Positions 7,150-11,737 of a DNA stretch of 34,099 bases are shown here, piece after piece; the stretch's first letter is position 1, and every line of letters starts with the position of its first letter. The stretch spans positions 1 to 34,099 of IMG/VR virus record IMGVR_UViG_3300046000_002675; one strand, given 5' to 3'. The DNA comes from a virus. The notes under the pieces were generated by a model, which saw only the letters and a list, made by a program, of their open reading frames with translations, was not told the DNA's origin and did no database searches. Made by a program: the position numbers and the translations under genes.

Positions 7150-7974
7150 TTAGAATAGTGTTGGGTTTAATTTTGATAATTCTGTTTTAGCAAATCCAAG
7201 TTCTTTTATTTCTTGTATTGTTGTTTTTTCTTCATCAATCCATTTTTTAGCTGCATTGTAAAAATCTTTTTTTATTTCAAATCCGTATGCTTTACGCCCA
7301 CACCTTTCAGCAGCAACTAATGTTGAACCACTACCAGCGCAAGGGTCAATAACTACATCGCCTTTGTCAGTAAATATTTCAATTAATGTTTTCAATAATT
7401 CAACTGGCTTTTGTGTTGGGTGGATTTTTTCGCTTACATTGTCACGTGGCCAATCCATGCAATTAAATATCATTTTTCCATTATTTCTAAATTTTGGCAA
7501 TTTGTCGCGGTATAAAACTAAAGCATATTCGCAGTTGCCAACAACTTTCATATTTGCTTTTAAAACTTGCGCACTAAAATTTTTGCGAAATACCAAATTA
7601 ATATAATTATTTAAACCGTATCTCTTAGCCAACTCAATCAAATACATTTGTTGGTCAAATGCGCAAAAAACAATCATACAAGGCGCATCTCCTTTTTGCC
7701 TTGCTTCTCCTTCAACTTTTTTTGTTTTAGTTTCTGCCTTTAACATTGTGCTACAAAAGTGCATAAACTCTGCTGGCCTAAAATCATCATCGGTATCGAA
7801 AAAACTTTTACCAGCTAATGCACTTTCTCCATTTGCATTGTTTCCATCTTTATACCATGACGGATTTGAAGCGTATGCATTATTGCCTAAATTATAGGGT
7901 ATATCTGCTATAATTAATTGCGCTTTAGGTATCGCATAACCTTTGTAATTTTGAAAATGGTCTCTGTATATCAT
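7150..7974 (-). CDS. DNA methyltransferase (N6-adenine/N4-cytosine, beta class)
   Basis: A 274-residue amino-methyltransferase that would use S-adenosylmethionine to modify phage DNA. The catalytic motif IV is DIPY (residues 24-27, a DPPY variant) and comes before the SAM-binding motif I DPCAGSGSTL (210-219). That order defines the beta class. KIHPTQKPVELL lies between them, as usual for these enzymes. No restriction nuclease or specificity subunit is nearby, so it is an orphan enzyme, probably for protection against host restriction or for regulation. It is preceded by a (TTAG)4 repeat next to the start codon and is separate from the second methyltransferase on the plus strand. Confidence 0.92.
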   Translation of the reverse strand: MIYRDHFQNYKGYAIPKAQLIIADIPYNLGNNAYASNPSWYKDGNNANGESALAGKSFFDTDDDFRPAEFMHFCSTMLKAETKTKKVEGEARQKGDAPCMIVFCAFDQQMYLIELAKRYGLNNYINLVFRKNFSAQVLKANMKVVGNCEYALVLYRDKLPKFRNNGKMIFNCMDWPRDNVSEKIHPTQKPVELLKTLIEIFTDKGDVVIDPCAGSGSTLVAAERCGRKAYGFEIKKDFYNAAKKWIDEEKTTIQEIKELGFAKTELSKLNPTLF

Positions 7975-9151: not shown

Positions 9152-9343
9152 ATGAAAACAAAACTATCTTTAATCTTATGGGCATTATCAGCCCTTTTTA
9201 TGTCCTTTTGGGCAGTCAAATTCGCAATGACTGGCGCAGAAAATGGAAACTCTGACCCTTTAATCTTTACCCTTTCCTTTTGTGCTTCCCTTACAAGTGC
9301 GGTTTGCGGTGCTGGGTTTATGCAACAATGGATGAAAAAATGA
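9152..9343 (+). CDS. Small two-helix membrane protein
   Basis: A 63-residue protein with two hydrophobic segments (about residues 4-26 and 36-57) and a basic tail QQWMKK, so it probably spans the inner membrane twice. It could be a holin-like or superinfection-exclusion protein; its place right after the first rightward promoter, far from the endolysin, makes a lysis role uncertain. The stop overlaps the ATG of the next gene (ATGA), indicating coupling. Confidence 0.65.
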   Translation: MKTKLSLILWALSALFMSFWAVKFAMTGAENGNSDPLIFTLSFCASLTSAVCGAGFMQQWMKK

Positions 9344-9756
9344 AGTTGCTCTGGAAACCGACAAAGCTAACCTGTGACATTGTCATCCCGGACCTTGATA
9401 AGTCACATGGTGTGCAAAAGGTTTGCGGCTTTTCAAGAGGCTGGCATCATTGGAATAGCATCCGTTTAGGCATACGCAAAGAAGACACCTACATTGTGCT
9501 ATATTTCTATGCTTACATTGATGGCAAGCGCATCATCCAGCGTTTAGGAAGATTCGAGATTGGCGAAATAGTATCAGTTGACTTGCAATGGGGCTACTAC
9601 ATTGAATGCAGAGCGAATGACAAATACGCATTTAGAATAGCACCCAAGCGTTCTTTTCCAATTGGTTACAGATTGTATCCCTATGCCGAGAAAGATGGTG
9701 TGAGGGGTCTTGAAGTGCCGATTGAGATTGAGATAAGTAATTTGAGGATTGATTAA
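9340..9756 (+). CDS. Hypothetical protein, 138 aa
   Basis: An unrecognised protein rich in beta strands and aromatic residues (GWHHWNSIRLGI, YIVLYFYAYIDGKRIIQRL, APKRSFPIGYRLYPYAEKDG). I chose the ATG at 9340 because it overlaps the preceding stop as ATGA; earlier in-frame codons would lie inside that gene. The gene ends 5 bases before the left border (GTTAGCACC) of the cassette-like region, so it marks the end of the phage backbone there. Confidence 0.65.
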   Translation: MKLLWKPTKLTCDIVIPDLDKSHGVQKVCGFSRGWHHWNSIRLGIRKEDTYIVLYFYAYIDGKRIIQRLGRFEIGEIVSVDLQWGYYIECRANDKYAFRIAPKRSFPIGYRLYPYAEKDGVRGLEVPIEIEISNLRID

Positions 9757-9760
9757 CGTT

Positions 9761-10144
9761 GTTAGCACCAGTACGGATTATTATGGAAGATTTTAGATTT
9801 ACAACAAAAGAACCACTTGCAACAAATGCAGACACAATGGATTGGTTTTCAAATGAACATTTTTACGAAGTGTTTGATGAAGACGCTATTTTCATAGAAT
9901 ACGATGGGAGTTATGCAGAAGTGCTTGATGGTAAAGGACAAAAATGGGGATTACACGCAAGTGGTGACGGTGATTTTATTAGTCACAGAATTAGATTTGA
10001 AGCACTATCGTAGTATTGGGGCTAACGAATGGTGCTATGAGCAGTAGCGGATTACGAGTGATAAACTTTCAAAATAGAACAAATGATGATACGAGATACA
10101 AAACTTCAAATAACCAGCGAACCCGCTATTGCTTATAGCACGTG
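9761..10144 (+). mobile_element. Integron-cassette-like unit 1 (one small gene plus attC-like site)
   Basis: The unit begins GTTAGCACC (9761-9769), carries one 76-residue gene on the plus strand, and ends in a 135-base imperfect palindrome. Its 3' core GGGGCTAAC (10018-10026) is complementary to its own 5' end at 8 of 9 bases. That is the rule for integron cassettes, because the two halves come together when the cassette circularises. The core boxes fit the classical RYYYAAC/GTTRRRY consensus only loosely. No integron integrase is present in the window. Confidence 0.5.
9783..10013 (+). CDS. Hypothetical protein, 76 aa, in cassette-like unit 1
   Basis: A very acidic protein (MEDFRFTTKEPLATNADTM at the start, later FDEDAIFIEYDGSYAEVLDG), unrecognised. 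I chose the ATG at 9783; the ORF could start at 9759, but that would run through the cassette border. It is the only gene of the unit and lies close to both borders, as single genes in integron cassettes do. The function cannot be inferred; small acidic proteins in phages are sometimes inhibitors of host nucleic-acid-binding proteins. Confidence 0.65.
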   Translation: MEDFRFTTKEPLATNADTMDWFSNEHFYEVFDEDAIFIEYDGSYAEVLDGKGQKWGLHASGDGDFISHRIRFEALS

Positions 10145-10152
10145 TTATCGGC
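10018..10152 (+). repeat. attC-like imperfect palindrome
   Basis: GTGCTATGAGCAGTAGCGG (10032-10050) pairs with CCGCTATTGCTTATAGCAC (10123-10141) at 17 of 19 positions. Outside these lie GGGGCTAAC (10018-10026) and GTTATCGGC (10144-10152), with short unpaired spacers of 5 and 2 bases and a central region of about 72 bases. The order (core, inner arm, variable loop, inner arm, core with GTT) and the length of 135 bases match integron attC sites. Confidence 0.55.
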
Positions 10153-10793
10153 TGCCTTTTCTTTCTCTTTTCCACGCTGATTGTATGGAAATTATGAAGC
10201 AATACCCTGATAAATACTTTGATTTGGCAATAGTTGACCCACCTTATGGTATAAATGCAGGTAAGATGACAATGGGTAGTGGAAAACATAAATTTACTAA
10301 AGGCAAAGAATGGGATAGCGGAATACCAACAGCGGAATATTTTAAGCAACTATTTAGAGTTTCTAAAAATCAAATTATTTGGGGAGGCAATTACTTTACA
10401 GAACATTTAAACCCAAGCCCACATTGGTTAATTTGGGATAAAAAAAACCCCAATTTATCATTTGCTGAAGGTGAAATGGCTTGGGTATATAAAGGCAAAA
10501 ACTTGAGAATATTTGGCAAGTATTCTGCACTTGTTGAAAATGGAGGCAAAATACACCCAACACAAAAACCAACTGATTTATATGATTGGGTTGTGAGAAA
10601 TTACTCTGAAAATGGATTTAAAATACTTGACACCCATTTCGGTAGCGGCTCGATAGCTTTGGCAGTAGATAAAGCAAATCGATTAGATAAAATGAATTTA
10701 CACTTAACAGCGTGTGAAATCGACAAAGAATATATTGAAAAGGCAATCAAACGAATTTCAGAAAGTATCAAACAAGGTACGCTGTCTTTTTAA
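10083..10793 (+). CDS. DNA methyltransferase (beta class) in cassette-like unit 2
   Basis: A second amino-methyltransferase with DPPYGI (residues 52-57) before FGSGS (186-190), so again beta class (N6-adenine or N4-cytosine), with KIHPTQKPTDLYDW between. The first 23 codons of the longest ORF are encoded by the attC-like palindrome. The family-like sequence begins only near residue 29 (LFHADCMEIMKQYPDKYFDL). Inside the unit itself the first ATG is at 10185, which would cut the conserved start. So either translation is fused through the upstream site from 10083/10086, a CTG at 10152 is used, or the N-terminus is slightly truncated. It is not similar in motif detail to the methyltransferase at 7150-7974. 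No endonuclease lies next to it. Confidence 0.85.
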   Translation: MMIRDTKLQITSEPAIAYSTCYRLPFLSLFHADCMEIMKQYPDKYFDLAIVDPPYGINAGKMTMGSGKHKFTKGKEWDSGIPTAEYFKQLFRVSKNQIIWGGNYFTEHLNPSPHWLIWDKKNPNLSFAEGEMAWVYKGKNLRIFGKYSALVENGGKIHPTQKPTDLYDWVVRNYSENGFKILDTHFGSGSIALAVDKANRLDKMNLHLTACEIDKEYIEKAIKRISESIKQGTLSF

Positions 10794-10797
10794 GGTT

Positions 10798-10806
10798 GCC
10801 GATAAC
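10798..10806 (+). repeat. 3' core of cassette-like unit 2
   Basis: GCCGATAAC is the exact reverse complement of GTTATCGGC (10144-10152) at the 5' end of this unit and lies 4 bases after the methyltransferase stop. The rest of an attC palindrome is not found downstream, so the site appears truncated or has decayed into phage backbone. Confidence 0.5.
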
Positions 10807-10855
10807 TACCTTATACACGCTACACAATAACGCTTATACAACAAAAAAACAAATA

Positions 10856-11136: not shown

Positions 11137-11555
11137 AACCAAAAGATGAAACACAACCATTCGAAAGTAGGCTATTAGAAGACCTACACCCTACCCTTGC
11201 ACACGCATACAAGAAAGCAGAAGCGCAATTCAATGCCATCCACAACGATGTTCACGTTATTATCGTTTGCACGTATAGAAACAACGCAATGCAGGAAGCG
11301 TATTTTCGTAAAAGACCGAAAGTTACCAATGCTCGTGCCGGTCAGTCAGCCCATAATTACTATCCATCAAGAGCCTTTGACATTGCATTTGTTAAAGTCG
11401 GTAAGCGTGAACTTGACTATGCGCCAAAGCATTTTAAAGAGTTTTGGGAGTTGCTGCAAGTGGCATCGAATAAGCTAACTTGGGGCGGTAACTTTAAATC
11501 GTTCAAAGACCTACCGCACGTAGAATTAACCAATTGGAAAATGACAATCGTATGA
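11133..11555 (+). CDS. Endolysin, M15-family peptidase
   Basis: A 140-residue enzyme of the M15 type (L-alanyl-D-glutamate endopeptidase or D-Ala-D-Ala carboxypeptidase-like) that would cleave the peptide stems of peptidoglycan. Zinc ligands are visible: H74 and D83 in SAHNYYPSRAFD, and H129 in LPHVEL. WGGNFKSFKD precedes the last histidine, as in phage T5-like lysins. It has no signal peptide, so export depends on a holin. It is followed by ATGA-coupled small genes, a holin-like gene and a spanin candidate, which together form a lysis module. Confidence 0.9.
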   Translation: MKPKDETQPFESRLLEDLHPTLAHAYKKAEAQFNAIHNDVHVIIVCTYRNNAMQEAYFRKRPKVTNARAGQSAHNYYPSRAFDIAFVKVGKRELDYAPKHFKEFWELLQVASNKLTWGGNFKSFKDLPHVELTNWKMTIV

Positions 11556-11737
11556 CAAGAGGCACACGCTACACAAATGGCAAAGAGGTTATAACCTTTG
11601 TTAAGATTGATTTTATAGTAATCGGTGGTCGAAAGATTGACCACGTTTACTTTAAGCGCAAGGATAAAAATGATTTGATAATGCCCTTGTTGGAGTGGAA
11701 TATTAAGGGTAAATTTGAATGGTTAATAATTAATTGA
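11552..11737 (+). CDS. Hypothetical protein, 61 aa
   Basis: A small basic beta-rich protein (MTRGTRYTNGKEVITFVKID at the start). The ATG at 11552 overlaps the endolysin stop (ATGA), which is why I prefer it to the ATG at 11534. Unrecognised; its position between endolysin and holin-like gene places it in the lysis transcript. Confidence 0.55.
   Translation: MTRGTRYTNGKEVITFVKIDFIVIGGRKIDHVYFKRKDKNDLIMPLLEWNIKGKFEWLIIN

Follow-up and report, generated by a model that had tools for sequence, protein, structure and literature searches.

A two-cassette array with an attI-like site in a phage genome, probably part of an integron-like system of Bacteroidota and their phages

Positions 9757 to 10842 of the phage sequence examined here very probably constitute an array of two gene cassettes with an attI-like site, belonging to an integron-like system of Bacteroidota and their phages. 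The sequence (IMG/VR record IMGVR_UViG_3300046000_002675) was analysed over its whole length of 34,099 nucleotides, referred to below as the window. Sites of the kind found in the window occur in about half of the sampled Bacteroidota genomes and in other phages, and phages thus seem to exchange protective genes by the same style of system as their hosts. The open-access literature yielded no description of the present system, which is apparently undescribed so far; its novelty is not certain, because preprints and most subscription papers were outside the scope of the literature search.

Anatomy of the phage array

All parts of the array lie on the plus strand. Its left border, placed by comparison with 65 relatives, is the stop codon TAA (9754-9756) of the upstream phage gene at 9343-9756. 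The next four nucleotides, CGTT (9757-9760), are a leftover of the left end of cassette 1, the palindrome of which has been deleted here, as comparison with the related loci L025 and L026 revealed. Read directly from the sequence, the core that opens cassette 1, GTTAGCACC (9761-9769), is complementary at 8 of 9 positions to the core that closes it, GGGGCTAAC (10018-10026). The gene between them (9783-10013) encodes a product of 76 amino acids that matched no known family and that has relatives in other surroundings at L025 and L026.

Cassette 2 begins with a recombination-site hairpin, attC-like but of reverse polarity, at 10019-10152, which was recognized by covariance model R1 and by covariation. 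In its stem, 17 of 19 positions of the arms (10032-10050 with 10123-10141) are paired, with two G.T pairs in addition. The core 3' of the hairpin, GTTATCGGC (10144-10152), and the core closing the cassette, GCCGATAAC (10798-10806), were located by sequence reading and by a repeat search; they are complementary at all nine positions, and the repeat search extends the match to 15 nt at 87%. The cassette gene (10083-10793) encodes an N6/N4 DNA methyltransferase (PF01555; phrog_67; alignment A1), the reading frame of which is open from the hairpin loop onward and has conserved ends and a hypervariable middle.

To the right lies the attI-like site, AAC-TACCT-TATACACGC (10804-10820), half of which is contributed by the end of the last cassette and which recurs as the same motif at phage arrays and recombinases. 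It overlaps a conserved “tail” (10807-10842) with which arrays of this phage family terminate at two different genomic sites. A preliminary description made from the sequence alone had read both genes as cassettes of an integron-like system in which the start of each unit matches its own end; this reading held, and its core pairs, palindrome, stem pairing and coordinates proved exact. It had also supposed a last attC, partly lost, at the right end, where the attI-like site and the conserved tail were found instead.

No recombinase was detected in the 34-kb record, which may be incomplete, and because of this absence the activity of the cassette system in the window phage may be past.

The mobile unit and its insertion sites

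Relatives delimit the unit that moves. In viral contigs carrying relatives of the methyltransferase, it comprises AAC|G-hairpin-GTTATCGGCTGCC-gene-GGTTGCCGATAAC, and the flanking DNA is unrelated on both sides; the methyltransferase unit was seen in ten contexts and the 76-amino-acid unit in three, with differing flanks. The right arm of the hairpin codes for N-terminal residues of the methyltransferase, and the left arm varies in step with the right (for example, in L002, L004, and L006). The relatives of cassette 1 in L025 and L026, with 84% and 83% protein identity, have a full palindrome between AACG/AACA and TGTTAGCACC, upstream of the gene. In the window this hairpin is gone, TAACGTT-GTTAGCACC being all that remains, and cassette 1 is therefore probably immobile. 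Since the hairpin travels with the gene that follows it, the phage cassette consists of a hairpin and the gene downstream, and the palindrome in the window thus belongs to the methyltransferase. The palindrome does lie between the two units, as had been described, but its assignment as the 3' attC of the 76-amino-acid cassette was rejected, given its coinheritance with the methyltransferase across relatives.

The stop codon of the upstream gene is an insertion hotspot. Several of the 65 relatives of this gene have other hairpin-gene units right after the stop and many are empty, so that the proposed comparison with close relatives revealed presence and absence at the same site; R1 matches occurred in only about one-quarter of the 65. 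In L047, L084, and L097, the array instead follows a second gene, the equivalent of window positions 11534-11737. Arrays at both genomic places end in the common tail of about 36 to 40 nt, AACTANCWTATATGCGCTACATTTACACGCTTATACAACAA, which a scan of the viral collection found in 14 stretches, all of the inspected ones being occupied by cassettes. The variants TGA|C (L026 and L097) and TAA|T (L002) suggest AA|C as the crossover point. With arrays at two sites in this phage lineage and complete systems in other phages (see below), this array is not the product of a single accident.

Within the methyltransferase family (L001-L011), DNA identity is 91 to 92% over the first 37 and last 53 codons and 48 to 58% in the middle, the pattern expected if the target-recognition part were exchanged between conserved ends, and one pointing to such exchange. 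At L003 (3001-3900), two methyltransferase cassettes of this family apparently stand in tandem.

The hairpin site and its distribution

Rfam gave no match. The arms of the window hairpin pair as described, but the folding energy did not exceed expectation (z, -0.6), because the loop is about 70 nt long; energy being uninformative, related sites were compared. A simple palindrome detector reported 52 such palindromes in the first related loci, a handful of them chance matches, whereas 143 kb of shuffled sequence yielded none. Covariance model R1 was built from 26 aligned hairpins and gave the window hairpin a score of 125.7 bits (E, 3e-23), the window site itself being among the training sequences.

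In the alignment of 74 chromosomal R1 matches, which was fitted to the structure and thereby flatters the count, 93.7% of cells were paired, versus 65% in shuffles and 32 to 50% in slid controls. Changes on both sides were seen at 18 of the 19 stem pairs; the remaining pair is a G.T mispair in all 74 sites, which corresponds to C.A on the other strand and could serve as an orientation mark. The distance from AAC to GTT falls mostly into two classes, of about 117 and 83 nt. AAC and GTT are invariant, and YTAACG/TGTTAR is typical. The other core letters often depart from RYYYAAC/GTTRRRY, a consensus to which the cores, described earlier as poor fits, conform only in part. Cassette arrays, imperfect palindromes, and cores that match the ends of their own cassettes are all present, as in integrons.

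R1 sites (E up to 1e-5) were found in at least 143 of 296 genomes of the phylum Bacteroidota, a lower bound obtained with a limited number of candidates scored per genome, versus 1 of 200 genomes of Pseudomonadota.

Recombinases adjoining the arrays

A tyrosine recombinase of 359 to 438 amino acids is encoded about 1 to 9 kb from one array end in genomes G191, G278, G064, G062, G199, and G203, adjoining seven arrays in the six genomes. Recombinase fragments occupy that place in G117 and at the second arrays of G064, G191, and G199. A search of Bacteroidota for the palindrome beside an IntI gene had been suggested; chromosomal arrays do adjoin a tyrosine recombinase, but not IntI. With the seven array-adjacent proteins (alignment A4) as the search profile, a full-length recombinase was found in 52 of the 296 genomes, and R1 sites were present in 49 of these 52 (odds ratio, 26; p, 1e-14). 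The 94 site-bearing genomes without a full-length recombinase of this type perhaps reflect decay or fragmented assemblies, or possibly the use of another recombinase.

The array-adjacent proteins match the integron integrase model TIGR02249 at 195 to 211 bits, below its cut-off of 265, and in two stretches; matches in the genome searches skip about positions 181 to 238 of the model. The spacing from the first catalytic arginine to HxxR is 91 to 94 residues in 38 of these proteins, compared with 133 in three IntI proteins and 91 to 101 in Xer-type proteins. Judging from this short spacing and the split, sub-cut-off match, the IntI-specific domain is absent from the array-adjacent recombinases. 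Phylogenetic trees recovered IntI as a clade of its own (support, 100/100) with the array-adjacent recombinases outside it. In a second tree some of these grouped with IntI at 96/87, and a single clade of chromosomal and phage members without IntI was rejected (p-AU, 0.004). With few IntI rows and long branches, the grouping with IntI is a lead, not a result.

The best or near-best sequence matches of the array-adjacent recombinases are XerA-type tyrosine recombinases (NF040815; PDB 5hxy), from which the chromosomal members (L134-L140) differ in adjoining hairpin arrays and in having an extra N-terminal region of about 60 to 110 amino acids. In comparison with HARP and DUF5710 this region gave only weak matches; it might contact folded DNA. 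Genome G203 encodes several tyrosine recombinases of equal PF00589 score, some of them near arrays (C1:1242001, 2684159, 2688384, 2933422, and 2936884), and at L156 (G162 C170:27027-29327) the recombinase lies on the opposite side of the nearest site, unlike the rest.

The attI-like site and phages with the complete system

As in integrons, a conserved site separates the array from the recombinase: a motif, YAAC-TNNNTTATA, that resembles attI in position and that the tail of the window phage matches. At chromosomal loci the last cassette ends in AAC, which is followed by T-NNN-TTATA near the recombinase (about 20 of the loci read). Recombinase-bearing phage contigs have AAC-TATTATATAT at the same place (about 25 phage recombinases), and the tail of the window family has AAC-TACCTTATAYRCGC, a motif seen at 11 other phage arrays. 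The loose motif has a background rate of 18% in windows of this size, so that single cases are weak and the argument is carried by position and common letters.

Among the 80 best viral loci with an A4-related recombinase, 44 also carry R1 sites, and all 214 R1 sites in those loci are on the recombinase strand, nearly all of them upstream of the recombinase. The 126.8-kb contig behind L191 (G306) has genes for a T4-type topoisomerase II (both subunits), a Dda-like helicase, an RNA ligase, and a DNA transfer protein, and is on this account a phage, clearly T4-like. Of 29 contigs checked, 7 gave terminase matches, of which two were weak. GenBank phages held no relative of the phage recombinase above about 40% identity, and no convincing R1 site was seen near the GenBank phage relatives tested.

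Between adjacent sites, the longest reading frame shares the strand of the site in 47 of 48 units from recombinase-bearing phages and in 18 of 19 from the window family (65/67 together), versus 2 of 33 chromosomal units, the other 31 having it on the opposite strand. Chromosomal arrays therefore follow the layout of classical integrons, and that layout is inverted in phage cassettes. These reading-frame counts overturned an earlier assignment, based on the strand of the model match, in which chromosomal cassette genes read toward the recombinase. A phage cassette gene begins within or just past the hairpin and stops about 6 nt short of the next site. Units have a median length of 385 nt in recombinase-bearing phages, versus 1122 nt in chromosomes.

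DNA methyltransferase families (N6_N4, C-5, and D12) account for 8 of the 10 longest phage cassette genes scanned, and a Dam-type methyltransferase is among the next ten, making four Pfam families overall; the scan of phage array units revealed no transposase. The window encodes a second N6/N4 methyltransferase on the minus strand (7150-7974), outside any cassette.

Proposed mechanism and alternative explanations

From these sequence comparisons we infer recombination at the hairpin sites, in a model in which a cassette would be a single gene with a single hairpin recombination site. The tyrosine recombinase would fold and cut one strand of the hairpin, which would be joined at its AA|C core to the double-stranded attI-like site (YAAC-TNNN-TTATA-nrCGC). 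New cassettes would thus enter next to attI, and existing ones could be excised or shuffled. The window phage would supply the attI-like site and cassettes, and the recombinase would come from the host chromosome or a coinfecting phage. Because the gene is inverted in phage cassettes, it reads toward attI and in the direction of phage transcription. What the phage probably gains is a variable repertoire of modification enzymes that counter host restriction, since the larger recognizable cassettes encode mostly DNA methyltransferases.

More broadly, we lean toward the view that a second kind of integron operates in Bacteroidota and their phages, with recombinases that lack the IntI-specific domain and from the radiation of which classical IntI possibly arose. 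Phages would have a version with inverted genes, either complete or reduced to an attI-like site and cassettes, by which methyltransferases and other accessory genes are swapped.

Capture of ordinary IntI/attC cassettes through a classical host integron integrase, as for other phages and as the preliminary description proposed, is unlikely, although phage attC clusters with methyltransferase cassettes have been published (PMC9892861), classical IntI above the cut-off was found in 84 of the 296 Bacteroidota genomes, and weak R1 matches (up to 35 bits) of the polarity expected for attC lie near some IntI genes. Across these genomes, R1 sites are not accompanied by more frequent IntI (odds ratio, 0.56), none of eight classical IntI genes has a strong R1 site within about 8 kb, and a classical attC near one IntI gene, at 60 nt, is different from the R1 hairpin. 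The recombinases at R1 arrays, with the spacing of 91 to 94 rather than 133, are a family other than IntI.

Stem-loop ends with a fixed mispair are typical of single-strand transposons, and the units might accordingly be palindromic mobile elements moved by other means, such as IS200/IS605-like or REP-type single-strand transposition, with a secondary link to the recombinase. This is very improbable: no transposase turned up in the scanned phage units, each unit is bounded by matching cores and not by two dissimilar hairpins, and the array end, the attI-like motif, and the recombinase consistently lie side by side. The slimmest chance is given to hairpins acting as expression elements, either 5' leaders or terminators, of genes spread by homologous recombination. 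The phage genes do begin inside the hairpin or directly behind it, and homologous exchange is clear in the methyltransferase family, but chromosomal genes lie on the strand opposite the same hairpin (31/33), which rules out a single leader role, and the matching ends and attI-like junctions are left unexplained.

Relation to known systems

The arrays resemble integrons (IntI, attI, attC) in their one-gene cassettes with matching ends and in the imperfect palindrome between AAC and GTT; in the chromosomal arrays, as in integrons, the gene reads away from the recombinase and has the hairpin at its 3' end. They differ in that the recombinase lacks the additional domain of IntI and falls outside its clade, that the hairpin has a near-continuous 19-bp stem, two main lengths, and the invariant G.T, and that, in phages, the orientation of the gene with respect to the site is reversed. 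The phage integrons and CALINs described by Qi et al. 2023 (PMC9892861) likewise include phage-borne cassettes with DNA methyltransferases, but there the sites are classical attCs, and IntI1 recombined five of six. R1 found no site in the 16.6 kb tested of Polaribacter phage P12002S, which is related to the P12002L of that study.

Existing catalogues treat integrons as rare in Bacteroidota. For Bacteroidetes proper, IntegronFinder 2.0 (PMC9024848) listed a single complete one, that of Salinibacter ruber, and Bacteroidetes are not among the taxon-specific attC models in PMC8352920. Should the hairpin arrays prove functional, a large pool of cassettes has gone unnoticed, since detection tools target IntI and classical attC. 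If a recombinase lacking the IntI-specific domain nevertheless serves such arrays, tests of how single-strand attC recombination originated would become possible, and the phages' own copies of the system, together with recurring cassette methyltransferases, suggest modular renewal of protection against restriction. Classical IntI itself, in 84 of 296 genomes (including L177-L180 and L281-L287), was commoner than published complete-genome surveys suggest.
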